25,206 nucleotides of DNA from a virus. A program made the translations under genes and the position numbers. Below, in pieces: positions 2,083 through 22,700 of the stretch. The notes under the pieces were generated by a model, which searched no databases, had not been told where the DNA came from, and worked only from the letters and a program-made list of their open reading frames with translations. Location of the stretch: positions 1 through 25,206 of IMG/VR virus record IMGVR_UViG_3300020474_000102; one strand, written 5' to 3'. How positions within the stretch are numbered: the stretch's first letter is position 1; each line of letters begins with the position of its first letter.

Positions 2083-4067
2083 TGGCAATTTCTGCTGGTA
2101 AATTGATGAATGTGTCTGCAGATAAAAAGGCACAATCAAAACCAAAAGCATCATTGGTAAGTACACCTAGTACTCAGTATTCTGTTCCATCTAGCGGTGG
2201 TGCTGATGGTGCTGGAGAAGATGGTGGTTCATCTAAAAGTGGTATATTAAAAAATCTATTAATTATTAAAGAGAAGACCATCACTATTGATGAGCATCTT
2301 AAAGAAACATATAAAAAACAAAAAAAGGATGTTCGAGATCAACGTTATGCTGAGAAGAAACAAAAAAGAAATTTTGCTGAGAATTTTTTAGAGAGGGATA
2401 ATAAGAAAAAATCAGAAGGAAAAAATCCTCTTGGTAAGGGGATGGCAACAGTTGAAAACTTCTTCATAAGTACCCTCTTGGGATTTGTTATGGTGAGGTT
2501 ATTACCATTTGTTGGTCCACTTGCTAAGTTCCTTAAATTTGCAGGAAAGGTATTTGATTTTATTATAAATTTTGCTGGTACTTTGTTTAATGCTTTTGCA
2601 GGTTTTGTCGAATTTGGATATAAAGCTGTTGATACTGTCAGAGGTGTAATTAAGAATGTTTTTGGTGAAGGAGGGGCAAAGAATTTTGATAAATTTACAA
2701 GCACCTTTACCAAATTTATGAATTTTGCCCTCATCCTTTTGATGGCAAGTTCTAATGTATTTAAAGGTCCTAAAGGTAAGGTAGGAAAGAAGATTGGTGA
2801 AAAGTTTAAAAAATCTAAACTAACAAAGAATACTAAACTTGGTAGGAAGTTACGCAAACTTAAGGCAAGAAAACTTAAGATGATGCGTAAACTTAAGTCT
2901 TCTAGGATAGGTAAGTTTGCAAAAGGTTTAAAAAAATTCTCACCTAAAAATCTTCTTAAGAGAGGTGGCAAATTCATTATGAAAGGAGGACCAGATAAAC
3001 TCCTTAAAGGTGGTGCTAAGATGCTTGGAAAGGGACTGCAATTTGGAAAAGGTTTAGCATCAAAAGGAGCAGGTAAAATTGGTGGATTTGCTGCAAAGAT
3101 ATTTGGTAAAGCTGCTAAGTTCATTGCTCCTGCAATGAAGAGTGCTAAACCATTTGTATCAAAATTCTTTGGTAAGATTCCTATTGTTGGTCCTTTAGTT
3201 GTTGGTATAGTCTCGGTAATATCAGGAGAACCTCTTGGTAAAGCATTATTCAGAACTCTTGGTGCTGCATTAGGTGGTGCATTAGGAACGTTTATACCTA
3301 TTCCTGTCTTAGGAACATTGATTGGTGAAACTATTGGTGTGTTTGTTGGTGATATGTTATATGAAGGTTTGATGGGTAAAGGTTGGGGAGCAGTAGGTAA
3401 AAAATTAATGGGTTCTTTAATGAAAATTTTTAGTGCTGGTAAAGCAGTTGCTAAATGGATTGGTGGAGGATTTACTAGATTCTTTAAGTCAGTACCTAAA
3501 ATTAAGATACCTGATATTCCTAAAGACCCTCCCAAATGGATACCTGGATGGGTTCCAATGAGAAATAAAGTTTGGAATGTATTTAAAACAGGATTAAAAG
3601 TATTAATAGGACCATTATCTTTATTGATGGGTAAAGAAGTGCCTAACCTTTTATGGTTAATGAATCCTATAGAGACTATTCCTGCAGCAATTAAATCATT
3701 TTTCCCACCTAAACCTCCAGGTGAAGAGAAAGAGACTAAGTTAGAAACTAGTGAGATAGAAGACAGTAAAGATGATAAGAAGAAGAAAAAGAAAAAGAAG
3801 GTTAATCCAAAAGATTTGAAGATTAGCAAACTTCAGGAGGAACTTAAAGCAGCTAAAAAGAAAAAGATTCTTATCTTTAAGGTTAACAGGGTTGATCTTG
3901 GTGGTGATTCTGTGGCAGAACAAACTGGTTATGAACAGACAGGAACAACTGTTATAACACAACCTATAGTTAAGGAGACTATTGTTCCATTACCTCGTGG
4001 TAAAAATATTGCACTTGCTACTCGTAGTGCAGAGACAAAAACTAATATGGAGGCAGCACTATCATGA
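2082..4067 (+). CDS. Large Lys-rich hydrophobic virion protein, possible tape measure
   Basis: This 661-residue protein starts at an ATG sharing one base with the previous stop (TAATG). Residues about 70-120 are highly charged. Residues about 124-180 are a hydrophobic run (ISTLLGFVMV and following). Residues about 230-340 are extremely Lys/Arg-rich with Gly-Lys repeats. Two further hydrophobic segments follow near 365-425 (IPIVGPLVVGIVSVISG, then a Gly/Ala/Ile-rich stretch). A Lys run sits near residue 570, before a mixed C-terminus. The alternation of basic helices and hydrophobic patches, plus the place just before the gp27-like hub, fit a tape-measure-like tail protein, but no family motif proves it. 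A long ORF on the opposite strand is a by-product of its composition. Confidence 0.6.
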   Translation: MAISAGKLMNVSADKKAQSKPKASLVSTPSTQYSVPSSGGADGAGEDGGSSKSGILKNLLIIKEKTITIDEHLKETYKKQKKDVRDQRYAEKKQKRNFAENFLERDNKKKSEGKNPLGKGMATVENFFISTLLGFVMVRLLPFVGPLAKFLKFAGKVFDFIINFAGTLFNAFAGFVEFGYKAVDTVRGVIKNVFGEGGAKNFDKFTSTFTKFMNFALILLMASSNVFKGPKGKVGKKIGEKFKKSKLTKNTKLGRKLRKLKARKLKMMRKLKSSRIGKFAKGLKKFSPKNLLKRGGKFIMKGGPDKLLKGGAKMLGKGLQFGKGLASKGAGKIGGFAAKIFGKAAKFIAPAMKSAKPFVSKFFGKIPIVGPLVVGIVSVISGEPLGKALFRTLGAALGGALGTFIPIPVLGTLIGETIGVFVGDMLYEGLMGKGWGAVGKKLMGSLMKIFSAGKAVAKWIGGGFTRFFKSVPKIKIPDIPKDPPKWIPGWVPMRNKVWNVFKTGLKVLIGPLSLLMGKEVPNLLWLMNPIETIPAAIKSFFPPKPPGEEKETKLETSEIEDSKDDKKKKKKKKVNPKDLKISKLQEELKAAKKKKILIFKVNRVDLGGDSVAEQTGYEQTGTTVITQPIVKETIVPLPRGKNIALATRSAETKTNMEAALS

Positions 4068-5362
4068 GTCAGTCTACTTCAGCTAATGCTGCTGTTCAAT
4101 CAGGTAACATTACCAAATGTCTAATACAATCTGTTCGAGAGGAAGGTAAAGAAGCAGATGTATCTCAAGGTATAGTAGATTTTAATTACTATGAGAGTAT
4201 ATTAGACAATACTTACAGATTTAATATATCAATTGTTGATACTGGACAACAGGGTTTGACAGTTTTACGTGAACTTCGATTGTCTGGATTTGAAAAGGTT
4301 GATTTAGTTTTTGAAGATAATAAAGGTGAGAAGTTGAGATTTGAGAATGATAATGCATTATGGGTATCTGAAATAACAAATATTATGTCTTCTACTGAAA
4401 ATACTACTTATAGTATTGATTTGGTATCTAAAGAATACCTTGCAAATGATCTTTGTAAGACTGAAGTATATTGTAGATATGATGGTGAAATATCTGATTC
4501 TGTTGAAGGTATTTTAAAAAGATATTTACAGACTGATAAAGGATATGAGGGTGATAAAACTAAGAACAACTATAATTTTATTGGTCAAGGTAAAAAACCA
4601 TTAAAGTTATGTACTGAACTTGCTAAGATGTCAATCTCAGAAGAAGCTGAGAATTCTGCAGGATACTTCTTTTATATGACTTATGATGGGTTCAGATTTA
4701 AAGCTGCAGATATACTGTTTAAACAAGAACCAAAGAAGAAGTATATATTTAACAATACTACAGATCTTCCTGATGGATATGATGAGAAAATACTTGAGTA
4801 TAATGCAAATAGTACCATAGATGTAAAAAGAAATTTGATGACTGGTACTTACGGATCAAAGGTTGAAACCTATAATCCACAGACTGATGAATATGATGAT
4901 GATGCACAGGAAGTTGCTAATGAAGATCAAAATCCTTATGGTGGTATGGATCTTCCTCAGATTGGTGAGGAGTTTAAAGATAAGTTTGGTGAAGTTAGTA
5001 GAAGATTTTTTAGGAAGTTAGATATTGGTGAGTTACCTTCAGGGGATATTGACGATCAACTTGAAAAAGCAATTGATGAGAATATCAAAGCAACTGATGT
5101 ATTTGCACAAGCTGCTATGCGTTATAATAAGATATTCACTAATCAATTAACAATAAAAGTTGCTGGGGATCTTAGTTTAAGAGCAGGTGATGTTATTAAG
5201 TGTGACTTCCCACAGCAAAGTACTGAAGAGATCCAAAGACCTGATGAGGAAATGAGTGGTTTTTATATGATCTCTGATATTTGTTATCATATGGAACCTG
5301 ATAGTTCTCTAACTAAAATGAATTTGGTTAGGGATTCCTATGGAAGGGCGACAGATTCTTGA
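4064..5362 (+). CDS. gp27-like baseplate central hub protein
   Basis: This 432-residue protein (T4 gp27 has 391) overlaps the previous gene by ATGA. It looks like a tail hub of the gp27/VgrG-barrel type: an N-terminal beta-rich domain, a central segment with AGYFFYMTYDGFRF near residue 200-215, and a C-terminal stretch where a 'low-barrier' motif (LSLRAGDVIKCDFP) is followed by GFYMISDICYHM and MNLVRDSYG, a pattern common at the end of hub proteins. The immediate context supports this: the next structural gene encodes a gp5-like protein, and gp27 and gp5 form the T4 hub-spike complex. Residues about 270-330 are acidic and probably flexible. Assignment is by architecture and gene order; I could not align it. 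Confidence 0.68.
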   Translation: MSQSTSANAAVQSGNITKCLIQSVREEGKEADVSQGIVDFNYYESILDNTYRFNISIVDTGQQGLTVLRELRLSGFEKVDLVFEDNKGEKLRFENDNALWVSEITNIMSSTENTTYSIDLVSKEYLANDLCKTEVYCRYDGEISDSVEGILKRYLQTDKGYEGDKTKNNYNFIGQGKKPLKLCTELAKMSISEEAENSAGYFFYMTYDGFRFKAADILFKQEPKKKYIFNNTTDLPDGYDEKILEYNANSTIDVKRNLMTGTYGSKVETYNPQTDEYDDDAQEVANEDQNPYGGMDLPQIGEEFKDKFGEVSRRFFRKLDIGELPSGDIDDQLEKAIDENIKATDVFAQAAMRYNKIFTNQLTIKVAGDLSLRAGDVIKCDFPQQSTEEIQRPDEEMSGFYMISDICYHMEPDSSLTKMNLVRDSYGRATDS

Positions 5363-5639: not shown

Positions 5640-8117
5640 ATGGCAGCCATTTCTTTATATAATGCAGAAGGACACCTTTCCAAGCGTACTTGGGAAGGTA
5701 TTGTTGCGCCTAGAGAATCTTGGCCTAGACAAGAAGAATCTGCAACTAGTCCTAACGAGATAAAGAATTGGGGTCATAGAGTTAGAGTTAGAATAATTGG
5801 AGTTCATCCAAAAGATAAGCAGGATCTTCCAGACGATCAACTACCTTGGGCAGAAGTAAGAACTACTACTATGGGTAGTGGTCATAAGGGGACTGGATTG
5901 AGTATGGGAATTACTCAAGGTACTTGGGTTGAAGGTATTTGGGATGATCCAGATAATAAGTCTGGTCCTATTATTCTTGGTATTAAAGCAAATAAATCCA
6001 CCACACCTTTAGTTAAGGAGCAACCTACTACTAATGGTTTTAAACAGATGAGTGGGTTTACTAATGATGATTTAGTTCCTACTGATAGTATTCCAGCATC
6101 ACAAGGACAACCAATTGAGTCTAATATAAATCCTAATCTTCTTGCTGCTGGTGATACTAATATGCACAAGGAAGCAACCATTGGGTTGGCACAACCTAGT
6201 GAGTGTGAAAAGATTCCTATGGGTGAGATACAAAAATCAATCATAGGGATGCAACAAGATATTGAGAGAGCACAAGATCAACTTAAAAAATGGGAGAACA
6301 CCACTACAGGATGGATTGAGGATAAGCAAGAATATATTAAAGATAAACAAGATATTGCTGCTAACTTTGTATCCAGAGGTATGAAATGGATGATGAAGGA
6401 GCAGCGTAAAAATTTGATGGAGACTATTAACAAAGAAACTAAGGCATTATATCATGATGTGAATCCATTAGATCGAGATAAAGTTAAAGCTGCAAAAGAT
6501 ACCACATTAGAACTACTTTCTTGTGTTTACAGTAATGTTACCAAGAATCTATTTAAGATGGTTGGTGATTTTTTAGGCAAGATCATGGAAAAGTATATCA
6601 ATGTTCCCATGTGTGCCATCGAGAATTTTGTTGGTGGTTTAGTTGGTAATCTTTTAGGGACTATTGGCAATATGGTTGATAGTATAATGGGAAGAATTGC
6701 TAGTATACTTGGTAGTTCATTTAGTATTGCTGATTCTATTCTAGGTCTTGTTGATCAACTTGTAGGGTTCTTTAAATGTGATGATGCTCAGGAATGTCCA
6801 GAAGCAAATGAGTGGGATATATTTGATGGTGGTCAACCAGCAGCAACATTTAATGTTGATAATATTTTAAATCAAGCAAAGGAAGTTACATCAAACGCTT
6901 CAAAGTTAATGGTTGACTTTGATACACTTAAGAACTTCTCTCTAGATAATGTAGTTAATGCTGGAGTTAGTGCTGCTAACCAGTGTAATGTTGGTCCTTT
7001 ATTTTGTGGTCCTCCTACAGTAGAATTTTGGGGTGGTGGACTTGAGGCAGGTGCAAGTGGGCATGCTAGAGGTAATGCAATTGTTAGTGCAGCAGGAGAT
7101 ATTCTTGGAGTTGATATTATTGCCAGTGGATTAGGTTATCGGAAGCAACCATTTGTCACTATTAAAGATAATTGTGGTAAAGGTAAAGGTGTTACTGCTA
7201 GAGCAAATATACAAACAGATGGTGGTATAGATCCTAATACAGGTCAACCAACATTTAGTGTTGGATCAGTTACTATTTCTGAGGAAGGTTTTGGTTATCC
7301 CAATAAACCAGATGGTGATATGGGTGGTGATGGAAGAGTATGGGCAGATAAGAATCAAACTATTGTTAAAAGAGTAGATGGTAAGTGGGAACGATTTGAT
7401 CCTGATGAAGAGATACCAAATGTAGATACTACAACTCCTAATGTTGATGGTGGAGTCGGTGATCAAATTCTTAAACCAGAAGATAGGAATATTGTTGGTG
7501 TAGATGATTCATTAATTGGACCAGGTGGAACTATTACTCCAACTATGTTAGGGGGTGGAACTGGTGGAACTGGTGCTCCAGAAGGAGGAGGAGGTTCTCT
7601 TAGTGGTATTGGTGATGATGGAGATCAACCACAGGCAGATAGAATTGCTCGTAGAAAAGGAGTTACACCAATTGCAGGAACTGGTCCTAATGGTGAGACT
7701 GATTTTAATGCATTCCCCAATTTAAGTGTTGGTAGTTATCCTGTAGTTCTATATCTTTGTGGTATGGAGATTGAGAATTCTGGTTTAAATTACACATCAA
7801 CAGATCAGATTGTTATTTCACCTAATGATGCAGGTGCAGAAGTAAGACCAACATTTGGTCCTTGGGGTGTATTAACTAAGGTTGAGATTATTAACGGTGG
7901 AAGTGGATGGACAGAGAGACCTAATATCTACATTAGATCTCAAACAGGATATAATGCAGTTATAGTTCCACGTTTTTGTATACAGAGAGTTGGTGATGAT
8001 ACTGAAGGGGATATTCCTGCAGGTACTCCAACTCTTAGTGTTATTGATTGTGTTGGTGAGGTAAATAGAGGTGAGGTAGATCCTTCTACAGGTTATCGAA
8101 TAATAGAGAGTAAGTAA
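5640..8117 (+). CDS. gp5-like baseplate hub/spike protein, no lysozyme domain seen
   Basis: This 825-residue protein starts three bases after the cp12-like stop. Residues about 40-115 are a gp5-type OB fold: WGHRVRVRIIGVHPKD, then LPWAEV, GTWVEGIWDD and a final GPIILG, the order found in T4 gp5 and VgrG. T4 gp5 then has a lysozyme domain and a beta-helical needle. Here residues about 200-300 are a charged probable coiled coil (QQDIERAQDQLKKWE), and about 310-385 are Gly/Ile-rich hydrophobic. The C-terminal third carries repeated 'GxGY..P.V.I' beta units near residues 495-505, 540-550 and 740-790, separated by Gly-rich linkers (about 630-660). I see no lysozyme catalytic motif. Likely role: the trimeric hub under the membrane-piercing spike, bound to the gp27-like protein. 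The needle part may be supplied by the next gene. Confidence 0.8.
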   Translation: MAAISLYNAEGHLSKRTWEGIVAPRESWPRQEESATSPNEIKNWGHRVRVRIIGVHPKDKQDLPDDQLPWAEVRTTTMGSGHKGTGLSMGITQGTWVEGIWDDPDNKSGPIILGIKANKSTTPLVKEQPTTNGFKQMSGFTNDDLVPTDSIPASQGQPIESNINPNLLAAGDTNMHKEATIGLAQPSECEKIPMGEIQKSIIGMQQDIERAQDQLKKWENTTTGWIEDKQEYIKDKQDIAANFVSRGMKWMMKEQRKNLMETINKETKALYHDVNPLDRDKVKAAKDTTLELLSCVYSNVTKNLFKMVGDFLGKIMEKYINVPMCAIENFVGGLVGNLLGTIGNMVDSIMGRIASILGSSFSIADSILGLVDQLVGFFKCDDAQECPEANEWDIFDGGQPAATFNVDNILNQAKEVTSNASKLMVDFDTLKNFSLDNVVNAGVSAANQCNVGPLFCGPPTVEFWGGGLEAGASGHARGNAIVSAAGDILGVDIIASGLGYRKQPFVTIKDNCGKGKGVTARANIQTDGGIDPNTGQPTFSVGSVTISEEGFGYPNKPDGDMGGDGRVWADKNQTIVKRVDGKWERFDPDEEIPNVDTTTPNVDGGVGDQILKPEDRNIVGVDDSLIGPGGTITPTMLGGGTGGTGAPEGGGGSLSGIGDDGDQPQADRIARRKGVTPIAGTGPNGETDFNAFPNLSVGSYPVVLYLCGMEIENSGLNYTSTDQIVISPNDAGAEVRPTFGPWGVLTKVEIINGGSGWTERPNIYIRSQTGYNAVIVPRFCIQRVGDDTEGDIPAGTPTLSVIDCVGEVNRGEVDPSTGYRIIESK

Positions 8118-9516: not shown

Positions 9517-9620
9517 TGCCTCGATATCGCTTCCTTGGTAACGGCAACGGAACCAAAAAGAAAAAGAAAAAAAAGCATACTGAGAGTGACAAACCTAAAA
9601 AGAAAAAATACAATGGATGA
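9516..9620 (+). CDS. 34-residue Lys-rich peptide (candidate small gene)
   Basis: The ATG at 9516 shares one base with the previous stop (TAATG), the coupling used by several neighbours. The TGA overlaps the start region of the cytidylyltransferase-like gene. The peptide begins MPRYRFLGNGNGT, then has seven Lys in a row, HTESDKP, four more Lys and YNG. A basic peptide of this kind could bind nucleic acid, but nothing shows this directly. The A-rich stretch could inflate Lys by chance. The start/stop overlaps at both ends are the main argument that it is translated. Confidence 0.5.
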   Translation: MPRYRFLGNGNGTKKKKKKKHTESDKPKKKKYNG

Positions 9621-10059
9621 ACAAACTTTAGTATTGGTAAGTGGAGGATTCGATCCTATACATAGTGGACATATTGAATACTTTAAAGCAGCAAAGCAAC
9701 TTGGAACTTTAGGAGTTGCTGTTAATTCTGATGATTGGTTAATTAGGAAGAAAGGTAAGTATTTTATGAATGTGGCAGAAAGGATGTCTATAATTAAAGA
9801 ATTGAAGTGTGTTGATGTTGCTATTGAATTTAATGATAAGGATGATACTGCTAATGATGCAATATGGATGGCACTTGAAATATATGATAAGGTAATATTT
9901 TGTAATGGTGGTGATAGGACTAGAGGTACTACTCCAGAGATGGAGAAGTATGGTGATAATCCTAGAGTCAGTTTTGTTTTTGGTGTTGGTGGGGAGGATA
10001 AAAAGAATAGTAGTTCATGGATTCTTAATAGATGGAATGAAGAAGTTAATATACACTGA
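9613..10059 (+). CDS. Cytidylyltransferase-like nucleotidyltransferase
   Basis: This 148-residue protein is the size of glycerol-3-phosphate/ethanolamine-phosphate cytidylyltransferases and of the RfaE/HldE C-terminal domain. Residues 11-20 read GGFDPIHSGH, the Rossmann-like first strand with the HxGH nucleotide-binding signature. A central NGGDR motif follows near residue 98, and KKNSSS near residue 131 stands where family members have a Ser/Thr-rich phosphate loop (usually SST). The family transfers a nucleotide to a phosphorylated sugar or alcohol; the substrate cannot be told here. I chose the ATG at 9613, not an upstream in-frame TTG at 9535, because the domain starts at once and the extra leader is only a shadow of the Lys-rich ORF. 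The gene overlaps the next by 23 bases. It may activate a sugar or polyol for the carbohydrate-cluster domain encoded downstream. Confidence 0.8.
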   Translation: MDEQTLVLVSGGFDPIHSGHIEYFKAAKQLGTLGVAVNSDDWLIRKKGKYFMNVAERMSIIKELKCVDVAIEFNDKDDTANDAIWMALEIYDKVIFCNGGDRTRGTTPEMEKYGDNPRVSFVFGVGGEDKKNSSSWILNRWNEEVNIH

Positions 10060-10531
10060 AGAGAATTTTATAACTCCAGAAGAATGTCAAGAACTTATTA
10101 AATTATCTAAGGCAAATCCAGACGAGATGCCTTACGGTGATGAGAGTAGAGGTGGTAATACATATCTAACAACTCTTGATGGAATATACTTTGAATCTCA
10201 AAAGAATAATGCTGTTGATAGAGTAACGAATGTTTGTAAAACATTTGATCAAAGGGTAATTATAGATTATGCAGGTGTGGTAAGGTGGCCTTCTGGTACT
10301 TTTATGAAACCTCATATTGATCCACATAGACCTAATCAAGAACCTGATTTATTTGCAGCAGTTCTTTATTTGAATGATGATTTTAATGGTGGGTACACTT
10401 GCTTTGATGATTATGAGATAAAACCAGAGACAGGTAAGTTACTTATCTTCTCAAATTCTGTGTATAAACATTCAGTCAGTAAGATTGATGATGGTGAGAG
10501 ATTTGCTCTTAGTATATGGTATAACCAATGA
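10037..10531 (+). CDS. 2-oxoglutarate/Fe(II) oxygenase (prolyl-4-hydroxylase-like), first of tandem pair
   Basis: This 164-residue protein has a complete facial triad: H93-x-D95 in MKPHIDPH, a distal H145 in YKHSVS, and R155 (GERFAL) for 2-oxoglutarate. The core strands AAVLYLND, GGYTCFDD and GKLLIFSN are typical of the small P4H-like 2OG-Fe(II) family common in cyanophages. Such enzymes hydroxylate protein side chains or small molecules using O2, Fe(II) and 2-oxoglutarate; the substrate is unknown. The start at ATG 10037 overlaps the previous gene by 23 bases. The frame stays open upstream to 9905, but that part is only the nucleotidyltransferase read in another frame. The next gene is a paralogue (see shared RWP.GTFMKPH.D and TGKLLIFSN). 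Confidence 0.85.
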   Translation: MKKLIYTEENFITPEECQELIKLSKANPDEMPYGDESRGGNTYLTTLDGIYFESQKNNAVDRVTNVCKTFDQRVIIDYAGVVRWPSGTFMKPHIDPHRPNQEPDLFAAVLYLNDDFNGGYTCFDDYEIKPETGKLLIFSNSVYKHSVSKIDDGERFALSIWYNQ

Positions 10532-11112
10532 AGAAAGTAATGTATGTTGAGGATGATTTTTTAAGTCCATCTTTATGTCAACCATTTATTGATCTTCATG
10601 AGAAGGAAAATGATTCCTTTTTAGAAACAGTAACCCATTCAAATTCTGGTGAGACTTTAAGTTATTCTCCTAAGATACCAGAACCAGATGGTGATTATGG
10701 TGCAATATATTTGGGTGGAGATGTACGTCCTGTTGATATTAAATTGACAAAGGATGAACTCTTTAAAAATGCTATTAGTAATGTAACCAGTATTTGTAAG
10801 ACATTTGTTAATGACATTCAATTGGATTATTGTGGTGTTATAAGATGGCCTAAGGGTACATTTATGAAACCTCATTATGATAAGTCTGAGATGTTTAGTC
10901 CCAATGTTCTTGCAGCATTTTTATATCTGAATGATAATTATATTGGTGGTCATACTCAATTTGATACGATAGATGAAGAAGTGTGGTTTGATGTTAAACC
11001 AAAAACTGGTAAGTTATTAATATTCTCAAATCGAGAGTACCTTCATCATGTTAGTGAAGTTGAGTCTGGAACTCGATATATACTGTCCTTCTGGTTTAAT
11101 GCCAAGACTTGA
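10528..11112 (+). CDS. 2-oxoglutarate/Fe(II) oxygenase (prolyl-4-hydroxylase-like), second of tandem pair
   Basis: This 194-residue paralogue of the preceding gene overlaps it by ATGA. Metal and cosubstrate residues are H116-x-D118 (KPHYDK), H173 (YLHHVS) and R183 (GTRYIL). The core strands FLYLNDN, GGHTQFD and TGKLLIFSNRE match its neighbour. It has about 25 extra residues near 35-75, between the N-terminal helix and the core, which probably line a different substrate pocket. Both copies keep all catalytic residues, so the duplication suggests two substrates rather than decay. Its TGA lies inside the -35 region of the promoter described next, so transcription can restart here. Confidence 0.85.
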   Translation: MKKVMYVEDDFLSPSLCQPFIDLHEKENDSFLETVTHSNSGETLSYSPKIPEPDGDYGAIYLGGDVRPVDIKLTKDELFKNAISNVTSICKTFVNDIQLDYCGVIRWPKGTFMKPHYDKSEMFSPNVLAAFLYLNDNYIGGHTQFDTIDEEVWFDVKPKTGKLLIFSNREYLHHVSEVESGTRYILSFWFNAKT

Positions 11113-11762: not shown

Positions 11763-12040
11763 AACTTAAAATCACTTGGGAATATGTCTGGTATGAAGAA
11801 CAAGTCGTTCGGATGTGTTATATAAATGGTTATCCTTATACCTTTGAAGATCTTACACCAGAAGAATGTACAGATAAGAAGGTTGCTAGTGAAGCAAATC
11901 AGAATAAGGATAAAGGAGTATTATATACTTCACAAGACTTGTTTAGATTAGGACAATATCTTATAATGGAAGAAGCACATCCAGAGCATTTTGATTTGGA
12001 AGATCAAATAGAAAACCCTAGAGAATTACCACTAGACTAA
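11759..12040 (+). CDS. Hypothetical 93-residue acidic protein
   Basis: This gene is coupled on both sides (ATGA with the oxygenase-like gene, TAATG with the NifU-like gene). The sequence starts MKLKITWEYVWYEE with an apparent beta strand, has a central TPEECTDKK segment, and ends in an acidic tail (EDQIENPRELPLD). There is no membrane segment and no recognisable catalytic motif. The tight coupling suggests it works with its neighbours, but no function can be given. Confidence 0.7.
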   Translation: MKLKITWEYVWYEEQVVRMCYINGYPYTFEDLTPEECTDKKVASEANQNKDKGVLYTSQDLFRLGQYLIMEEAHPEHFDLEDQIENPRELPLD

Positions 12041-12276
12041 TGGAATTAACAGAAGAAAATGTAATGAAGGTTCTCGAAGACCTTATACCATATATTGAAG
12101 CAGATGGTGGATGGTTAGAGTTTGTAGAAATAGAAGAAGAAACGAACCTTGTTAAAGTAAGATTAGGTGGTGCATGTGAGTCATGTGCTATGAGTGCTAT
12201 GACCCTGAAACAGGGGATAGAAAAGAAAGTGATGATGGATATTCCTGATTGTGTTGGAGTTGTTCAGGTATTATGA
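12040..12276 (+). CDS. NifU-like Fe-S scaffold protein (NFU domain)
   Basis: These 78 residues are a complete stand-alone NifU C-terminal (NFU) domain. They show the helix VLEDLIPYIEADGG, a beta region, and GGACESCAMSAMTLKQGIE with the CxxC pair C46/C49 that holds a labile [4Fe-4S] cluster between two subunits. Family members pass clusters to apo-proteins; cyanobacteria use NfuA of this kind for photosystem I maturation. In this block it sits among Fe(II)-dependent oxygenase-like genes, so it may support Fe-protein demand during infection. It does not itself supply the mononuclear iron of those enzymes. Coupled upstream by TAATG and downstream by ATGA. Confidence 0.9.
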   Translation: MELTEENVMKVLEDLIPYIEADGGWLEFVEIEEETNLVKVRLGGACESCAMSAMTLKQGIEKKVMMDIPDCVGVVQVL

Positions 12277-12407
12277 TTTTAGCAACAGTATTGATAATTG
12301 TATCAGTCCCATTTGTGGCATTAACTTTATACATGGGAACAAAGGGTGGATATTATGATAGTGATGACTATAAAGGTGATGGATGTGCTCACGATGTGAA
12401 ACGATGA
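12273..12407 (+). CDS. 44-residue single-span membrane peptide
   Basis: The ATG at 12273 overlaps the NifU-like stop, and the TGA at 12405-12407 overlaps an in-frame ATG of the next gene (ATGA at both ends). Residues 2-21 are a hydrophobic span (ILATVLIIVSVPFVALTLYM). The tail is polar, with GGYYDSDDYKGD followed by C38 and H40. The organisation resembles small photosynthetic or phage single-span proteins, but it matches none that I can name. The double overlap and the clean membrane segment make it a credible gene. The tail probably lies outside the membrane; orientation is not clear. Confidence 0.7.
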   Translation: MILATVLIIVSVPFVALTLYMGTKGGYYDSDDYKGDGCAHDVKR

Positions 12408-13507
12408 GACGATACACATATGATGCGAAAAATTATCCCCTGTCAGAAATTGCTCTAGGGTCGATTCAAAAGCATTATCCTGATGTACAGGATTTGTCTT
12501 TATTACATGAGTATGTTCCTGCTAAGAAGATTGGAGAACTAGCAAAGATTATAGGTAAGGATTTAGCAGATACTAATTTTTATGAGATCTTTGATAAACT
12601 CTTAAATGATTATGTCTCTTTGGGTGAGATATTGGTACAAAGGTTTGGTAATATACGAATTAATATACCCAATCAAGATAAGGATGGAACTGTTTTACCA
12701 TTCCATCAAGGTCAATGGGTTGGTAATGGTTTAGGTCTTAGAACTATATGGTTACCTTTTACTGATGCCTATGATAGTAACTCTCTACAAATAGTAAACC
12801 TTATGGATAGTAGGGAAATTACTAATGCGTGTAAGGAGTGGGACTACCCTAGGCTTCAAGAGGAATGTCAGAAGTCCTGTGAACCAGTCAATATTAAGAA
12901 GGGTCAGTTTATATTGTTTACTCAGGAGCATATTCATGGTGCTGCTCCTAATAGAACTGGTAAAACTAGAATGAGTATTGATGTTAGACTTCTATTAAAA
13001 GGTGGTCAACCTCATAGGAAATGGCCTGGTGCATATTTTAGGAAATTGGGTGATACGAATATTCATTCACGTAAGGTCGAGATTAAACACAATGATAATG
13101 TTGTAATGTATGCTGAGTATGAGGGATTTAAGACGAGATATATTGATTTGCACTTCCAAACTTTGACCGTCAAAGACTATTGTAATAGGATGGGTTATAC
13201 ATTCCCACATCAAACTGGTGATAATGAGGGTAGAAAACATACTTATCTAGAGTATTTGATTCAAGAAGGTAATCTTGATCATATTATGATGTTTAGTATC
13301 TTTTCTTTACCTGATGATTATCATAGAAGAGACTATATTATGCGTTTGGCAGTCGCACTTAAAGTTAAGTTGCATTTTGCTAACGAAGAGTTTGTATTAG
13401 ATAGTTGGGAGATGCTAGATAAGATAGAGTACTTAAGAAACTTCACTACAGATTGGAGCAACCCAGTATATGAGAGTTCAAATATGGCACTCGCCAGGCA
13501 TGAATGA
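12404..13507 (+). CDS. Fusion: 2OG-Fe(II) oxygenase-like domain plus LIC12192-like 'sporadic carbohydrate cluster' domain
   Basis: This 367-residue protein has two parts. Residues 75-200 resemble the StrG-like/sporadic-carbohydrate-cluster oxygenases: RINIP, LPFHQGQWVGNG, TIWLPFTDAYDSNSLQIV, GQFILF, distal H178 (HIHGAA) and R189 (TRMSIDVR). The usual HxD is HxG here (H101-Q-G103). Residues about 235-335 resemble the LIC12192 family: YEGFKTRYIDLHFQTLTVKD, GNLDHIMMFSIFSLPDD, HRRDYI and HFANEEF. From memory these two families are adjacent genes in bacterial surface-carbohydrate loci; here they are one chain. Start: the ATG at 12404 overlaps the previous stop in the ATGA style of the block; an in-frame ATG at 12383 would add seven residues. 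Likely role: modification of a glycan or sugar precursor, perhaps with the cytidylyltransferase-like enzyme. Function is inferred. Confidence 0.72.
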   Translation: MRRYTYDAKNYPLSEIALGSIQKHYPDVQDLSLLHEYVPAKKIGELAKIIGKDLADTNFYEIFDKLLNDYVSLGEILVQRFGNIRINIPNQDKDGTVLPFHQGQWVGNGLGLRTIWLPFTDAYDSNSLQIVNLMDSREITNACKEWDYPRLQEECQKSCEPVNIKKGQFILFTQEHIHGAAPNRTGKTRMSIDVRLLLKGGQPHRKWPGAYFRKLGDTNIHSRKVEIKHNDNVVMYAEYEGFKTRYIDLHFQTLTVKDYCNRMGYTFPHQTGDNEGRKHTYLEYLIQEGNLDHIMMFSIFSLPDDYHRRDYIMRLAVALKVKLHFANEEFVLDSWEMLDKIEYLRNFTTDWSNPVYESSNMALARHE

Positions 13508-13703: not shown

Positions 13704-16700
13704 ATGGGTCTTAGTCGCTTAGATAATTTTCTGAAGAACAGTCGTGGAGATATTCTTTACGTTGATCCTTCTAGTATAGACTCAACCGATAGTATTGAGA
13801 ACCAAGGTAACTCTCTGGTAAGACCCTTTAAGACAATTCAAAGGGCACTGATTGAGGCTGCGAGATTCTCCTATCAAAAGGGGTTGGACAACGATAGGTT
13901 CAGTAGAACCACAATCATAGTATATCCAGGTGATCATACTATAGATAATCGTCCTGGTTGGATACCTATTCAAGATGCTCCTTTGTCTGGTAATACCTGG
14001 ATGACTAGAGGTGGATCTGGTGCTAGTGGATTAACAGAATTTACGTTAGATACGAATTTTAATATAGAGAGTGATGATAACGACCTTTATAAAGTTAACT
14101 CTGTCTACGGTGGAGTTATTATTCCCCGTGGTACATCTATTGTTGGTTTAGATCTTAGAAAGACTAAGGTTAGACCTAGATTTGTTCCAAATCCTGAAGA
14201 TGGAACGATTGATCGCACATGTTTATTCAGAGTTACAGGTACTTGTTACTTTAACCAGTTTACATTCTTTGATGCAGACCCCAATTCATTAATATATCAA
14301 GATTACGGTAATAATAAGTTTGTACCTAATAAGTCACACCACAAGTTAACTTGTTTTGAATATGCTGATGGTGTTAATCCAGTTAAGTTTAACGATTCAT
14401 ATTTAAATTATAATACAACGAGAACTGATCTCGATATGTATTATCAGAAGATTGGTTTATTGTATGGAACTTCTAGTGGAAGAGACATTACTCCAGACTT
14501 CCCTAATACAGGTCAAGACATACAGACCAAGATTGATGAATTTAGAATTGTTGGTTCTCAAGGTCAGAATATTGGTATTAGTAGTATTAAGGCAGGTGAT
14601 GGTAATACTGCTACTACTGAAATTACAGTAGATATTACTGAATCAATCACAGGACTTGATGTTGATACTCCAATTAGGATTGAAGGAGTTCCTGTTGGTG
14701 GATATAATGGTTCATTTGTTATTAATAAGGTAGAGAGTAGTAGTAGAATTAAGTATAATGTATCTTCTGCTCCTGCAAATGCACTCCCTAATATTGTAAG
14801 TGGATCACCAACACTTAATGTTGTTGTTGATTCTGTTACATCTGCTTCTCCATATATCTTTAACTGTTCATTAAGATCAGTTTATGGTATGTGTGGTCTC
14901 CATGCTGATGGTGATAAGGCAGATGGATTTAAATCTATGGTTGTTGCCCAATTCACTGGTATAGGACTTCAAAAAGATGACAATGCATTTGTTAAGTACA
15001 ACACTACGTCTGGTGTATATGAGGACAGTAATGCTGTATCTAATCTACACACAGATTCAAGAGCACTCTACAAACCCTCGTACACCAACTACCATATTAA
15101 AGCATCTAACAATGCGTTTTTACAATTAGTATCTACGTTTGGTATTGGTTATGCTAATCATTTTGTAGCAGAGAGTGGTGGTGACCATTCTATTACAAAC
15201 TCTAACTCTAACTTCGGTTCGAGAGCGATTGTTTGTAAAGGATTTAGGGCAGATGCCTTCCCAAGAGATGACACAGGATATGTTACACATTTCATTCCTC
15301 CACAAGAAATTACAACAACAGATATAGGTATTGAATTTTTACCTGTTGATGTTGAGAAGACAGTTGGTGTTGCTAATTCATCTAGATTATACTTATATAA
15401 TGAATTTAACGTAAATAACCCACCAAATACAGTATTAGAAGGTTATAGACTTGGTGCTGCTGCTCATGATGATTTAAAAGCAATCTTTAATATTAATGGT
15501 AATCAAGTTACTAGAAAGTCTAGGATAATTCTTCCTGATACCCAAGGTACTGGTACAAGAGAAGTAAGTTCTGTTAAGACAACTACTGTTGGTAGAAATA
15601 CTATTGGTATTAATAGTATTACCTCAAATATTTTTACTTTAACTGATAGTCATCAGTTTATTAATGGTGAATCTGTTAGGGTTATGAGTGATGATGGTGA
15701 ACTTCCTGATGGTATAGATCACAACTCAGTTTACTTTGCAATTACTTCTGGTATTAATAGTGACCAAGTTAAATTGGCACAGACTTTAAATGATACTATT
15801 AGTTTGTCTCCAATATCTGTTAACAGTAAAGGTGGTATTCTAAGTATTGAGTCTAGAGTATCGGATAAAGGATCAGGTGATGTTGGTCATCCTGTTCAAT
15901 ATGATAGTACTATTGGTCAGTGGTATGTTAATACAAGTACGATTAATAACGAGATCTATGATTCTGTTGTAGGTTTAGGAACTTCAACTTTAGGTAGTGC
16001 AACTCCAAGGACATTTATTAGTAGAAAACCTGATACTAGATCTCTAGATGATAGGATTTATAAGGTTAGATTTGTTGTACCTAAAGATGCTACAGTTCTA
16101 TCAAAACCACCAACTGATTCATTCGTTATTCAAGAATCTAGTTCTACTACTGGATTAACAGATGCAGAAGTTCTTAAGTTTAATAGTATTGATCCAGTTC
16201 AACTTAATAATACATCTGAATTAAGGAACCCAAGATTTATATCTAATGCGGTTTGGGATGCTGGTATTGGAACAGTTGGTGTTGCTACTCTTACTACTGA
16301 GATTCCACATGAATTATCTGTTGGATCTGTAGTTAAGGTTGTTAATGTACTATCTGGTCTTAATACAACTGGATTGGGTAATACTGGATATAATGGTGAA
16401 TATAAGGTAACTGGTAGAACATCTAGAAGAGAGTTTACTGTTGGTATTAAGACAGATCCAGGTGTATTTAATAATGATACTTCTGCAAGAAATACAAATC
16501 TTCCAAGGTATACTAGAACTGAAACTAAGAACACTTTATTTGTTTATAAGAAGGACGAGATACAAGAGTATGTCTCTAATGTAAAGGATGGCGTTTATCA
16601 CTTAACTTTAATTGATGCATCTAACCGTCCTAGTGTAGAACCATTCGATGAGATGAGGTTCGCACAACCAGTTAAGAGTCTATATCCTCAAATGGATAGA

Positions 16701-19544
16701 GATAATCCTGTATCTGATCCAAATCAGACTAGGACTTTTGCTCTACCATCACCTATTGGTTTAACTGAGGTTAATGATCCTCAGAACAGTCTTACTAAAG
16801 AGACTATTAACAAGAATATTAGAGACTTTGAGGTTGGTGTTGGAATTGTTGAAATTGAATCACAGAGTGGTACTGCTCATACACTAACAACAGAACTAGA
16901 TCATAACCTTAATAGAGTTAATGTTGTTGCAATATCTAGTGCTGGTTTTGGATATGGTGATGGATCTGGATCTATTCAGACACTTTTCAACGCTAATTTA
17001 GTTGGTATTGGAACCTCTGTAACTGGTAAGAACGCAACTGCCAACATCAAGATCAGTCCTACAGGTCAGATTACTGACGTTAAAATTGTTGATGGTGGAT
17101 CTGCATTTGGTATAGGTAACACACTTGCTGTAGTTGGTGTTGCTACTACCGCAGGATATGTTGAAGGTGTTGTTCAAGTAACTCATATACATGATGCAAC
17201 TAATGAGATATTAAATGTTGAGGGTATTCGAGATAGTGTATTTGATGATTACAATAATCTTTATAAGGTAACTAGTGTTCCTGTTGGAGAATCTAATAAA
17301 GTTAATGTATCGTCTGCGACTACGGTTTATGCTAATTATCAATTTACTGGTGATACGGCAATAGCAGGTGTTAATACCAATGGTTTGACGAAAATTAATA
17401 ATACTATTCTCTCAGATGTTACTTCATATGTAACTGGTGAGACAGTTGGTATAACTTCTCTTACATTTGATCATGTTGCTGGTATTGCTAGTGTTACTAC
17501 AGGTAAATCTCATGGTTTACTTAATAATAGCACTGCGAGAGTTATAGGATTTAATGAGACAATCTTTAATGGATCATTTACTGTTACTAATGTTTATACT
17601 GTAAATTCGTTTGCTATTAATGTTGGTATATCTACTGTAGCAGTAGTACCAACAGGAACTGGTTCCATATATCCTACAGGATTTACTGCTCAAGCAGGTG
17701 CTATTGATCCTGCTAATGAATTTGCGTCTGCGAGATTATCTCCTCAGTATGCAGGTATTACCACAGCAATTACTGTTGCATTAACAGACCCAACGATTAA
17801 TACACTAACAGTTCTTAATGCTCTTAAGTATAACTGGAATGTTGGTGATTATCTTATCGTTGATAATGAGATTATGCGTATCAGTGAGACTGTCGTACAG
17901 GATACAACACTTGATGTATTCCGTGGTCTTTTTGGAACGCAGAAACAAGATCATGCTATCGGAGCACAGATAAAGAGAGTTAAGTTTAAACCAATTGAAT
18001 TTAGACGTAACTCAATTATTCGTGCGTCAGGTCATACATTTGAATATCTTGGATATGGACCAGGTAACTATTCTACTGCATTACCATCAAGACAGGACAG
18101 GCAGTTTAGGAATGTAGAGAGAGTTCTATCACAGTCTGTATCTGATAATGCTGGTACTCCATACTATAATGGTTTGGATGACCAAGGTAACCAATATACT
18201 GTTAACAAGTTTACTAGTGGTTCCACTGGACAAGACTTGATTACTGGAGCACCAGTACCAACAATTCGAGGTGAAGATATTACTTCTAACAGTAATGCTG
18301 TTGGATTTGATGTTGAGGAAACCGATCAAATAACTGTCAACAGAAGTATTAAGGTTGATGGTGGAAGAGATAAGAATATTGTCTCTGAGTTTAATGGTCC
18401 TGTAGTCTTTAATAAGAAGGTAACTACAAACGCTCCTGTTGAAGCGAACAGTCTATTCATTCAGGGTACAGAAACTATTGCTAGAAAATATAGTGTTGGG
18501 GTATCAACTCCTGCTATCTCTGGTAACGTAGGTGATATAACATTTGATTCAGAACCATCTTCAGGTGGAACTGCTGGTTGGGTATACACTGATGACAATA
18601 ACTGGATGAAGTTTGGACCTATCCAAGCAAATCCAAATGGTGCTTATGTTGGTATCTTTAGTGGATCATTTGTAGGAGATGGTTCACAGTTACAAAACGT
18701 ATCTGATGTTTGGGTATTTGATGGTGTTGGTATATCTACCACAGCACAGGTTGGTATTGAAACTACACAGGCAAAGTCAGGTTATTCTTTATATGCTGCT
18801 GGTGCGGTTCTATTCGAGAACAGTGTTGAGTTCAGAATGGATACTGTTCTTTGGAATGTACCTGATGGTTGGTTGATTAATACTGGTATTACTACCTTTA
18901 ATCAACAACTTAATGCTAATACGTTTAGAACAGTTGGTATCTCGACTCATGAAGCAGACGTATTAATTACAACTAACCCAGCAACAACTGGAGATTCGGA
19001 TGGTAACTTCCTAAGATTTGTACAAACTGATACGATCTTAAATGCTGCTTATAAGTATGGTGGTATTAAGTGGGAAGGTTTTGATACTGGTAACGAAGGT
19101 ACTAGAGGATTTATTGAAGGTGTATCTGAAGGATCATCTGGACAGTTTGGTATTAGCTTTGGTACAATGGAGACTGGAGCATCTAATCCACAAGAGAGAC
19201 TTAGAATTGCAGCGAATGGTAACATAACTTCTACTGGTACAATCACAGTTACATCTGATGAAAGTATCAAGAGAGATGTTGAGACGATTCCACACGCTCT
19301 AAGTACGGTTCAACTGCTACGTGGTGTAAATTACATACGTAAGTCTAGTGGTCTTCCTGAAACTGGATTGATCGCACAAGAGGTTGAGAAGGTTCTTCCA
19401 GAACTTGTAGAAACACATCCTGATACAGGACTTAAATCAGTTGCATATCAGAACATGGTTGGTCTTTTGATTGAATCAATCAAGGAACAGCAATTACAGA
19501 TTGCAGAACTAAAAGAAAGAGTAAACAAACTAGAATCAAAATGA
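13704..19544 (+). CDS. Giant tail-fibre-like protein with C-terminal peptidase S74 chaperone
   Basis: This 1946-residue protein begins with a compact domain (GDILYVDPSSIDSTD, RPFKTIQRALIEAARFSYQ) known at the N-terminus of very long cyanophage fibre/structural proteins; TIIVYPGDHTI suggests a pectate-lyase-like beta-helix start. Most of the length is Gly/Thr/Val/Ile-rich beta structure, with 'SAGFGYGDGSG' and 'VDGGSAFGIG' units around residues 1070-1145. The last ~96 residues are an intramolecular chaperone of autoprocessing (S74) type: TSDESIKRD, LRGVNYIR, TGLIAQEVEKVLPELV, VAYQNMVGLLIESIKEQ and a terminal coiled coil. In endosialidases the chain cuts itself before the Ser of this motif after trimer folding; the equivalent residues here are S1851 and K1856. 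It is expressed from a late promoter. Likely a long fibre or baseplate fibre that contacts the host surface. Confidence 0.85.
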   Translation: MGLSRLDNFLKNSRGDILYVDPSSIDSTDSIENQGNSLVRPFKTIQRALIEAARFSYQKGLDNDRFSRTTIIVYPGDHTIDNRPGWIPIQDAPLSGNTWMTRGGSGASGLTEFTLDTNFNIESDDNDLYKVNSVYGGVIIPRGTSIVGLDLRKTKVRPRFVPNPEDGTIDRTCLFRVTGTCYFNQFTFFDADPNSLIYQDYGNNKFVPNKSHHKLTCFEYADGVNPVKFNDSYLNYNTTRTDLDMYYQKIGLLYGTSSGRDITPDFPNTGQDIQTKIDEFRIVGSQGQNIGISSIKAGDGNTATTEITVDITESITGLDVDTPIRIEGVPVGGYNGSFVINKVESSSRIKYNVSSAPANALPNIVSGSPTLNVVVDSVTSASPYIFNCSLRSVYGMCGLHADGDKADGFKSMVVAQFTGIGLQKDDNAFVKYNTTSGVYEDSNAVSNLHTDSRALYKPSYTNYHIKASNNAFLQLVSTFGIGYANHFVAESGGDHSITNSNSNFGSRAIVCKGFRADAFPRDDTGYVTHFIPPQEITTTDIGIEFLPVDVEKTVGVANSSRLYLYNEFNVNNPPNTVLEGYRLGAAAHDDLKAIFNINGNQVTRKSRIILPDTQGTGTREVSSVKTTTVGRNTIGINSITSNIFTLTDSHQFINGESVRVMSDDGELPDGIDHNSVYFAITSGINSDQVKLAQTLNDTISLSPISVNSKGGILSIESRVSDKGSGDVGHPVQYDSTIGQWYVNTSTINNEIYDSVVGLGTSTLGSATPRTFISRKPDTRSLDDRIYKVRFVVPKDATVLSKPPTDSFVIQESSSTTGLTDAEVLKFNSIDPVQLNNTSELRNPRFISNAVWDAGIGTVGVATLTTEIPHELSVGSVVKVVNVLSGLNTTGLGNTGYNGEYKVTGRTSRREFTVGIKTDPGVFNNDTSARNTNLPRYTRTETKNTLFVYKKDEIQEYVSNVKDGVYHLTLIDASNRPSVEPFDEMRFAQPVKSLYPQMDRDNPVSDPNQTRTFALPSPIGLTEVNDPQNSLTKETINKNIRDFEVGVGIVEIESQSGTAHTLTTELDHNLNRVNVVAISSAGFGYGDGSGSIQTLFNANLVGIGTSVTGKNATANIKISPTGQITDVKIVDGGSAFGIGNTLAVVGVATTAGYVEGVVQVTHIHDATNEILNVEGIRDSVFDDYNNLYKVTSVPVGESNKVNVSSATTVYANYQFTGDTAIAGVNTNGLTKINNTILSDVTSYVTGETVGITSLTFDHVAGIASVTTGKSHGLLNNSTARVIGFNETIFNGSFTVTNVYTVNSFAINVGISTVAVVPTGTGSIYPTGFTAQAGAIDPANEFASARLSPQYAGITTAITVALTDPTINTLTVLNALKYNWNVGDYLIVDNEIMRISETVVQDTTLDVFRGLFGTQKQDHAIGAQIKRVKFKPIEFRRNSIIRASGHTFEYLGYGPGNYSTALPSRQDRQFRNVERVLSQSVSDNAGTPYYNGLDDQGNQYTVNKFTSGSTGQDLITGAPVPTIRGEDITSNSNAVGFDVEETDQITVNRSIKVDGGRDKNIVSEFNGPVVFNKKVTTNAPVEANSLFIQGTETIARKYSVGVSTPAISGNVGDITFDSEPSSGGTAGWVYTDDNNWMKFGPIQANPNGAYVGIFSGSFVGDGSQLQNVSDVWVFDGVGISTTAQVGIETTQAKSGYSLYAAGAVLFENSVEFRMDTVLWNVPDGWLINTGITTFNQQLNANTFRTVGISTHEADVLITTNPATTGDSDGNFLRFVQTDTILNAAYKYGGIKWEGFDTGNEGTRGFIEGVSEGSSGQFGISFGTMETGASNPQERLRIAANGNITSTGTITVTSDESIKRDVETIPHALSTVQLLRGVNYIRKSSGLPETGLIAQEVEKVLPELVETHPDTGLKSVAYQNMVGLLIESIKEQQLQIAELKERVNKLESK

Positions 19545-19690: not shown

Positions 19691-19711
19691 AGGGTCAGTA
19701 AAATTAGATTG

Positions 19712-22700
19712 ATGCATTTTTATTGTGATGGATACAAAGACAAACCCCATAGGTTTGGATTTGGTGAGACTACACGATCATATGATAAGAGACATAAAGA
19801 TGGTGATTATGGTAAAGCAAATCAAGTTATAGATGTATATGATGGTGAACGCATCCAGTTGGGATACTGGGAGGATCAGTCTACAAGATTTGATGGAGAG
19901 TTGAATATAAACCATCAAGATCATGTTGTACATGCTTGGTTGAAGAAAGATATACCTGGTGTTAAGGAGATTGGTAGAGAGACTTTTGAGGTTAATGAGG
20001 ATATTATTAGTGTTGACGTTGTAGTTCAAATGATTGAAGAGAAATGGTTCTCTGGTGCAAAAAAGAAATGGAAGACGTTTGATCCACGCCCATATCAACA
20101 GAATTTTTTAAATAAGATATCTAAAGCATGGCAATCTGGTCACGAACAGTTTTTATTATTTGCAAAGTGTCGTGCTGGTAAGTCTGTAATGACTCTTCAA
20201 CATATTGTGAATTGGGATTATAAGTTTACTGTTGTATGTTCTAGATTTGATTCACCACAGCAATCATGGAGGGATGATTCTAATACCTTCTTCCCAACTA
20301 TTAAATATATTTCAGTTAAGGATAAGAATTGGAAACAGGATTTAGAATTTTGGATGGAACGTCCAGTTAATGTTGTTTTATGGGCAACTGTACAATCGTT
20401 AATGAATCGTGAGATACCTCAACCAGATTTACTTGTTGCTGATGAGTGTCATATAGGTTCTACAGCAAAACAGTTTACTGAACTTAAAGAGAGATATAAT
20501 ACTAAGATACTCTATCTATCTGGTACTGCTTACAGCATAGTATGGGATTTTAAGGATGATAATAAGTTTGTCTATAGTTATTTTGATGAGCAGTTAGATT
20601 CTATGAAGGGTGTATTTGATGAACCTCGTCCTAGGATGTTACCAACAATAAAAGTGTATGATACACCTGCATATCGTAAGATTTTTGGTAGTGATCCTGA
20701 TTCAATTAATAATACATTCCTGATAGATCAAGAGACTGACAAGTTTTTAAATCCAGAACTTCCTCGTGACTTTGCATATGATAACTTTGATCCTAAAGGT
20801 ACACAAAGAGAGGTTGGATTGAAGCAGAAGATCTTCCAAGGAAGATATATGATGATGGCACTATCTAAAATAGCAGCATGCCATGAGTTTAAAAAAATTG
20901 TTGATTGTTGGTGGCCTACTTTAGTTGTTACTAGTGATACTAAAAATAAGGCAGATGAAATTAATAAGTTTATTGAGGAACATCCAAAAGCACTTATTCT
21001 TACTTCATCTGCAAATGTATTAGGATTTACCAATGAGAAGATTGATACTATTATCAACTGTAAGGGTGGTGAATCTCTTGAGTTCTGGAATCAATTTGCC
21101 TTCCGTGGAGGATCAGGTACACATAATTGGCATATGATTGACTTCAATGGTAAACGTGCTCTTAAATCAATGCATGCTTCATTCCAGTTAGCATGTGATA
21201 GTAATCCTGAGTTGAGAGAGTATCATGAAACTCAGTTTATGGATCTTAAAGGTTATGATAATGGTTTTAGGGAACTAACAAAGGAAGAATTTGATAGTAT
21301 TCTATCTACTGATATTGATTCTACTATGACTACAATGGAAAGTTTAGAGTCAATTTTAAATTTAGATGATGTTGAGTTTAACTACAATGTAAATACTTTT
21401 GCTACAAATAATGAATCATCAAAGGTAATAAAAAAGGCACTTGCAGGTGATGAGGATATGAATAATGAGATTGGTTATAAAGCGGAGATTGATACTGTAA
21501 AAAAGTCTAATGAAGACCCTAACAAATGGAAGAAGAAAGTAGTTAGGGCAATTTTAAAGAGTATACCTCTTTGTATTTTTTATATCTTGAAGGAAGGTAA
21601 GAATGTTAATACTATAGATGATATTTTAAAATCACCAGTCTATATTGATATTAGTGGTGATACTGAGGGTATACTCTCTGATGTTATAGATGCTAATCAC
21701 AATAGTAGAGAGAAACTTACACGTCGTATCGGTACAGAGTCTAAAACTATCATAACAAGTATGAGAGAGTCTGTAACTAAGACTTTAGATACTCTCTCAG
21801 TGTCCTCTGCCATCCAGCAACCTATTCCTTTAATTCTTCTTGATCCAATGATTAATAAATTAAAAGACACCTCACAGACTCTTATACACTCTGATCCAAG
21901 CGGTTCTCATACTGCTAGGTTATTAGAACAAAATGTTAATGTTCATGAATTGACAGTCTGGGATGATTGTGCTAACCACAGAAATAGGGTAGAATATATT
22001 GATAAGCATGTTACCCTAACTAACGAACAACCAGTGTTACGTCCAACAGCGATTCTTGCTAATCCCCCTTATCAAGATCCAAACACTAAAGCAAAGAATA
22101 ATAAGCAATGGAATAAGTTCCTATTGCAGCATGTTGACATGTTAGTGGATGGTGGGGATATGTGTGAGGTTTGTCCTGCATCATTTATTGGTACTACTGG
22201 GTTTGGTAAGAAGTTCCTTAAACTTTGCTCTACGGTTTATAATTTAAAGGAGATTGATTATACAGCAGACCAACACTTCACTCAAGGAATAAAAATTTGT
22301 AGTTGGCATTTAACTAAAGAACCATATCAGGGTAAGACTAGAGTTATTACAGATGATGGTGAGTTTGATTGGGATCTTCGTGATGGTGTACCAGCATGGG
22401 GTGATAAAGTATTAGAGACTTCTATTTTGAATAAGATTGCTACCTCTAATCATCCACGTATCCCACTGAAGATGGGTCAAGCGATTGCTAAGGAAGATTA
22501 TTGTGATGATGGTAAGTATGAAGTCCTACATTCAGGTAATATTACTTGGAAGACTAATATAAAACCTGAGACTAGTGATGTATTGAAGTTTGTTGTACCA
22601 TACTCTATGTCATATAAGAAGAGATTTATAACCAATGCACATATTGGTATGCTCAATGCATGGTGTCCTATTGTAGATGAAGAAGAAGGTGAGAGATTAT

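Follow-up and report, generated by a model that had tools for sequence, protein, structure and literature searches.

A viral fusion of an HxG-site 2-oxoglutarate oxygenase with a LIC12192 domain of predicted serine-recombinase fold

Introduction

The closest described relatives of the gene studied here are found in bacteria, where oxygenases of the TIGR04324 (SpoChoClust_2) family pair with proteins of the TIGR04323 (LIC12192) family, and in streptomycin clusters, where the oxygenase StrG lies beside StrB1. At the level of the metal site, parallels are found among the Fe(II)/2-oxoglutarate (2OG) halogenases with HxG/A, which include SyrB2, WelO5 and AdaV. The use of HxG by Fe/2OG halogenases is described in the excerpted text of PMC11186838. 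According to the excerpted text of PMC8252765, however, human AspH is a hydroxylase with an HXG...H site and FIH retains some activity when its Asp is replaced by Gly, so that HxG alone is no proof of a halogenase. On the phage side, PMC2853527 reports a radical SAM/amidinotransferase module in Campylobacter phages. In the titles and abstract starts of open-licence papers on phage halogenases, HXG genome mining, phage amidinotransferases and aminocyclitols, phage radical SAM enzymes and cyclases, and StrG/StrB1, no description of an HxG fusion family was found.

Results

The window, that is, the whole stretch of DNA that was analysed, is a virus record of 25,206 bases (Table 1). Translation and NCBIfam matches bore out the coordinates, the start codon at 12404, residues H101, G103, H178 and R189 and the two domains that a preliminary description had assigned to the fusion gene. 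The longest open reading frame at this locus starts at 12383; the seven codons upstream of 12404 hold a stop codon in at least nine relatives, which makes 12404 the likely start. Residues 29-197 match TIGR04324 with 83 bits, under the curated cut-off of 150, and viral relatives score 59-90 bits (all eight tested singly fall under the same cut-off). The match of residues 237-344 to TIGR04323 (55.0 bits) lies right at the cut-off of 55, other viral relatives scoring in some cases just over this value and in others 40-45 bits. Both models are matched by 20 of 20 family members tested, and the Pfam PhyH model is matched above its cut-off (31.8 bits vs 22). Sequence comparison of the whole protein with solved structures gave no meaningful match, and the family profile retrieved only PtlH from PDB sequences (E 0.016). 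PtlH is also the closest solved fold to the oxygenase half of the predicted model (Z 14.3, rmsd 3.3 over 200 residues; pLDDT 89.0 and pTM 0.86 for the full-length model). The oxygenase half combines the PhyH profile, a modelled double-stranded beta-helix fold and the two metal histidines and 2OG arginine of a PhyH-type 2OG/Fe(II) oxygenase.

Table 1. Coordinates of the fusion gene, its domains and key residues, and two neighbouring genes in the window
Feature	Coordinates	Strand	Basis
Neighbouring 2OG-Fe(II) oxygenase, PF13640 53.1 bits, HxD (MKPHYDKSE)	10528..11112	+	Pfam, translation
Fusion gene (HxG 2OG/Fe(II) oxygenase domain + LIC12192 domain)	12404..13507	+	367 aa plus stop
Domain 1, residues 1-205, StrG/TIGR04324-like PhyH-type oxygenase	12404..13018	+	NCBIfam, Pfam, fold match PtlH
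H101-Q102-G103 (HxG replacing HxD)	12704..12712	+	translation, alignment
E175, putative replacement acidic ligand or second-sphere residue	12926..12928	+	viral-clade invariant
H178, distal iron-ligand histidine	12935..12937	+	alignment
R189, presumed 2OG-binding arginine	12968..12970	+	alignment
Domain 2 (TIGR04323/LIC12192), residues 224-352, predicted fold of a serine-recombinase catalytic domain	13073..13459	+	NCBIfam, model
1946-aa gene downstream of the fusion, putatively tail-fibre-like	13704..19544	+	position

Viral relatives were gathered by four pattern scans yielding 17, 22, 79 and 80 loci, the third taking 80 of 84 matches and the fourth 80 of 131, and the fetched loci amount to 146 distinct contigs by our own grouping. 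The third scan was biased to the site, one of its patterns containing HQG and the other covering E175; the patterns of the other three are located away from both the HxG site and E175. Not one of the 99 full-length distinct viral proteins lacks H101, G103, E175, H178 or R189, and the same is true of the 74 that remain when the unbiased scans only are counted. Likewise, HQG is found in the 100 of 100 distinct domain-1 rows that reach the site (108 rows, eight of them fragments that stop short), and identity to the window protein goes down to about 32%. The family encodes G103 by three synonymous codons (GGT 53, GGA 31, GGC 15), and dN/dS (Nei-Gojobori, window against five relatives) is about 0.19-0.25 for the oxygenase half and about 0.04-0.09 for the domain 2 half. 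G103 is fixed in the viral family and under purifying selection.

A scan of genome contigs for bacterial members returned none, and these were instead reached through an amidinotransferase scan and genome searches. Of the 42 bacterial rows, 39 have Asp here, as do all six StrG-type rows; the three remaining bacterial rows have a gap (L295, L296 and L302) and are partial alignments in which the pattern print displays HRD. The bacterial HxD...H triad of TIGR04324 is not matched by the viral rows. The alignment proposed in the preliminary description has thus established the change from Asp to Gly, first noticed in the window, as real and family-wide (99/99 viral rows against Asp in 39/42 bacterial ones). 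A deletion of the Asp, suggested by the PtlH alignment, was discarded, given that the spacing from the His to Trp116 is equal in bacterial TIGR04324-type and viral rows.

The fusion follows the same division. At least one frame with both domains together occurs in 141 of the 146 viral contigs, and the other five give a match to one domain only, four of them being visibly cut by the stretch end. In bacteria, by contrast, the domains are separate in 32 of 32 loci that hold both (31 distinct, as L258 and L286 are the identical place), always on the same strand with domain 2 downstream and never fused, an order of genes that equals the order of domains in the viral protein. This upholds the earlier view that the fusion is real and that LIC12192 is normally a separate neighbour in bacteria, the gene lying directly downstream in every one of these loci. 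Bacterial rows L274 and L295-L302 are distant oxygenases with no domain-2 partner. The viral HxG rows form one clade (support 99/98; 98% of bootstrap trees) in a tree built from 76 rows, some of the bacterial ones standing on long branches. Since the bacterial rows are split and carry HxD, and the viral rows all stand on one side of the 99/98 branch, fusion and loss of the Asp share the branch to the viral clade. Alignment and tree together point to the viral HxG variant as a real, single-origin and active-looking form of a known kind of oxygenase. A tblastn search of 50,697 records of isolated phages, with the window, L084 and L108 as queries, gave no fusion homologue, and none of the 50 matches listed in a BFVD structure search exceeds a TM of 0.36 over the query, most of them being single 2OG oxygenases. 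Seven distinct contigs hold two different HxG fusion paralogues each (L082/L103, L083/L104, L081/L105, L085, L099, L100 and L101), with the copies on opposite strands within the stretch in six of them.

Besides the glycine, several positions around the pocket differ between viruses and bacteria. Asp at position 108 (24 of 42 bacterial rows) becomes Asn in the viruses, Glu at position 112 (30/42) becomes Leu, Cys or Met, Val at position 114 (31/42) becomes Thr, and the Asn, Thr, Ser or Ala of bacteria at position 175 becomes Glu. These changes could reflect either the removal of acids around an anion-friendly pocket or the displacement of the carboxylate to E175. The suggestion that a Gln might replace the missing ligand loses ground, as position 104 varies among the viruses (Q/K/R/I/V/A) and the invariant Q102 is only the "x" of HxG. 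E175, which did not appear in the preliminary description, is a candidate for a replacement carboxylate; acting as a third protein ligand, it could turn the apparent two-His site into a relocated triad. Lying three residues before the distal His, it would then substitute for the Asp in an ordinary hydroxylase with a moved ligand. Its presence in 99 of 99 viral and none of 48 bacterial or StrG rows (where N, T, S, A, H, R or D is found), together with its origin on the D103G branch, speaks for such a move, which we nevertheless regard as unlikely: that branch also carries changes at about a dozen further positions, so that E175 is no unique partner of the glycine, and we know of no 2OG enzyme with a carboxylate ligand relocated in this manner.

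The preliminary description had proposed a halogenase-type or otherwise altered enzyme. The altered site stands; the diagnosis of a halogenase is not supported, in view of AspH and of the halogenase models, none of which the protein matches above cut-off. An Fe(II)/2OG halogenase would be a special case of an open two-His site, in which a halide would occupy the position of the Asp and pass to a substrate radical. The excerpt of PMC11186838 presents HxG/A as a screen for such halogenases, the domain is of the PhyH type, and the change of D108 to Asn and the loss of E112 cut the negative charge near the site. A weak local match to the chlorinating-enzyme model TIGR01762, seen in eight of 20 members, points the same way, but its 17 bits compare with a cut-off of 226.3 and cover the distal-His strand only. 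Furthermore, the window protein has no match to the WelO5 family PF22814 at E<=1, PDB sequence searches returned no halogenase chain, an invariant acid (E175) was gained nearby, and AspH hydroxylates despite its HxG (excerpt of PMC8252765). Taken as a whole, this evidence leaves halogenation a rather unlikely activity.

Domain 2 was also modelled alone (pLDDT 86.8). The first hit of this model in VIA is the gamma-delta resolvase 2gm5_C (Z 12.1, rmsd 3.0, 111 residues), and ranks 1-30 are all recombinases or entries titled as DNA-binding relatives, other folds starting at rank 31 (Z 6.5). In agreement with this, the first 35 rows of a Foldseek search are all serine recombinases (best E 3.5e-5), and hhalign of three profiles against ten resolvases gave collinear alignments (E 1.6e-4, 4.4e-5 and 2.6e-4; probabilities 50, 69 and 42%). 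By sequence alone, domain 2 retrieved no serine recombinase from the PDB. The LIC12192/TIGR04323 domain is predicted from these models to fold like the catalytic domain of serine recombinases without their catalytic residues, and a probable fold can now be assigned to LIC12192. In hhalign, E238, E240, S301 and D304 fall on the resolvase columns that we take to be the catalytic Arg, Ser, Arg and Arg; with the Ser and Arg positions lost, the idea of domain 2 as a working recombinase was dropped. A full-text search of open-licence papers for LIC12192 and for the cluster name found no paper.

That the partner domain also lacks the catalytic residues of its fold, with one metal ligand gone from the first, would suit a catalytically dead pseudo-oxygenase serving as a binding or scaffolding protein. 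We consider this very unlikely, because the two histidines and the 2OG arginine persist without exception down to about 32% identity, with purifying selection on the gene, and because two ligands suffice in AspH, as the excerpt of PMC8252765 indicates.

The surroundings of the fusion differ among the viral clades. In clade 1, which contains the window and contigs like it, the gene is flanked by baseplate genes, other 2OG oxygenases or tRNA genes on one side and by a large gene of ~1,940 residues on the other; the 1946-aa gene of the window stays beside the fusion in the window-like relatives L027, L035, L042 and L049. For the tail protein gene of the window (4064-5362), T4-like cyanophages give the nearest matches, with an identity of at most about 37% (178 records). 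In L027, L028, L030, L032 and L035, a tRNA-Thr (tgt) gene lies no more than about 20 bases from the start of the fusion and may mark an insertion point; no tRNA is present in the window. Shortly upstream of the fusion in the window, 9535-10059 encodes a cytidylyltransferase-like protein (PF01467; nearest PHROG heptose adenylyltransferase), a hint of nucleotide-sugar work. Farther downstream, 19709-23288 holds a 1059-aa ResIII helicase-like gene and, after it, a short frame resembling an N6-methylase (score below cut-off), an arrangement that recalls restriction-modification or methylase loci.

In clades 2 and 3, a StrB1-like amidinotransferase lies near the fusion in 41 of 81 contigs, and aminotransferase-like, epimerase, radical SAM and DegT-type genes surround it. 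For that of L090, the best-matching chain is the inosamine-phosphate amidinotransferase 1bwd at 299 bits, the next chain reaching 175. Within the stretches covered, none of the 65 clade 1 contigs has an amidinotransferase, and neither does any of 15 whole records in a search run without a positive control. A cyclase is present in five of 20 records tested, and its nearest chain is 4p53 (titled "Cyclase"; 259 bits), which we take to be EEVS. In L120, L130, L143, L144 and L303-L305, the HxG fusion adjoins an EEVS-like cyclase, a kinase, an SDR, a DegT-type aminotransferase, many radical SAM genes and an amidinotransferase, and one cyclase cluster has thymidylate synthase and phage ATPase genes on the same record. 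A small 2OG-oxygenase-like family with canonical HxD (L144:8372-8893) often directly adjoins the fusion.

The possibility that these clusters are misfiled host DNA is countered by two viral records with the fusion: L110 (363,943 bases), with gp23 (the T4-type major capsid protein) and a terminase match, and L163 (216,704 bases), with gp23. The viral origin of the cyclase-bearing records is less sure, as that of L128 has phage-family genes yet no gp23 or phrog_2 match. In the isolated Synechococcus phage S-SCSM2R, the neighbours of an amidinotransferase are glycosyltransferases, a radical SAM gene and a homologue of the small oxygenase that adjoins the fusion elsewhere; the stretch read holds no HxG fusion. 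Outside the viruses, the marine Chloroflexi contig L168 has two StrG-like genes (6888-7589 and 11810-12598) that adjoin a StrB1-like amidinotransferase, possibly an unstudied guanidino-sugar cluster.

Discussion

The explanation that we favour, and judge fairly probable, is an active Fe(II)/2-oxoglutarate enzyme with a two-His iron site, whose ancestry lies among the StrG/TIGR04324 oxygenases. Along the branch to the viral clade, Gly would have replaced the Asp that binds the metal, and the gene would have fused in frame with the LIC12192 gene behind it. Iron would be bound by H101 and H178 only and 2OG held with R189, leaving near G103 an open coordination position that water, a substrate carboxylate or a halide might occupy. 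The substrate may be a sugar- or cyclitol-type metabolite, which would be oxidised or, less surely, halogenated, and the recombinase-fold domain might assemble the enzyme or present a ligand rather than cut DNA. In general terms, the fusion enzyme of these aquatic phages probably carries out unusual chemistry on a sugar-like molecule. It is highly improbable that the true situation is something other than an active two-His enzyme, a relocated carboxylate or a dead protein. It is important to remark that, with clade 1 devoid of the amidinotransferase, the cyclitol inference for the window depends on relatives whose identity is about 33%. A bolder and doubtful scenario is that a phage halogenase-like or other two-histidine Fe/2OG enzyme, linked to a dead recombinase fold, tailors the product of a virus-borne aminocyclitol-type pathway made up of the EEVS-like cyclase, aminotransferases, radical SAM enzymes and StrB1-like amidinotransferase; what is made during infection might be a cyclitol or glycan with a guanidino group and perhaps a halogen.

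What is new here is the predicted recombinase-like fold of the LIC12192 domain, E175 as a candidate ligand and the presence of an amidinotransferase near the fusion in distant clades. For the metal site of 2OG oxygenases, the family amounts to a clean natural experiment, with one origin of the change from Asp to Gly, its fixation in 99 distinct proteins and split HxD bacterial relatives for comparison. It also points to large virus-borne clusters of aminocyclitol or guanidino-sugar character, and a phage product of new chemistry may await isolation.

Relation to Known Systems

The Fe/2OG halogenases have the HxG/A site in common with the viral enzyme, although it does not match the halogenase models. 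Human AspH has a like site, HXG...H with two His ligands (excerpt of PMC8252765), but it acts on proteins, and the likeness is one of site motif. PtlH/PhyH-type hydroxylases have a like fold, a weak profile match and the common stretch HQ(D)G...RTxW, whereas PtlH keeps its Asp and has no fused domain. In the Campylobacter phage CP220/CPt10 module, an amidinotransferase stands among radical SAM genes as in the viral clusters, with no HxG fusion in the stretch of CPt10 read. StrG is homologous to domain 1 (D1 profile E about 1e-10) and its setting beside StrB1 is echoed by the StrB1-like neighbour in viral clades 2 and 3, but StrG has HRD and is unfused, with no domain 2 located in its vicinity. 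The bacterial TIGR04324 and TIGR04323 pair has the same two domains in the same order as the virus, and H178, R189, W116 and the PGG[FY]-like stretch at the C-terminal end of domain 1 are common to both; the bacterial pair consists of two genes with HxD, whereas the viral form is one gene with HxG.
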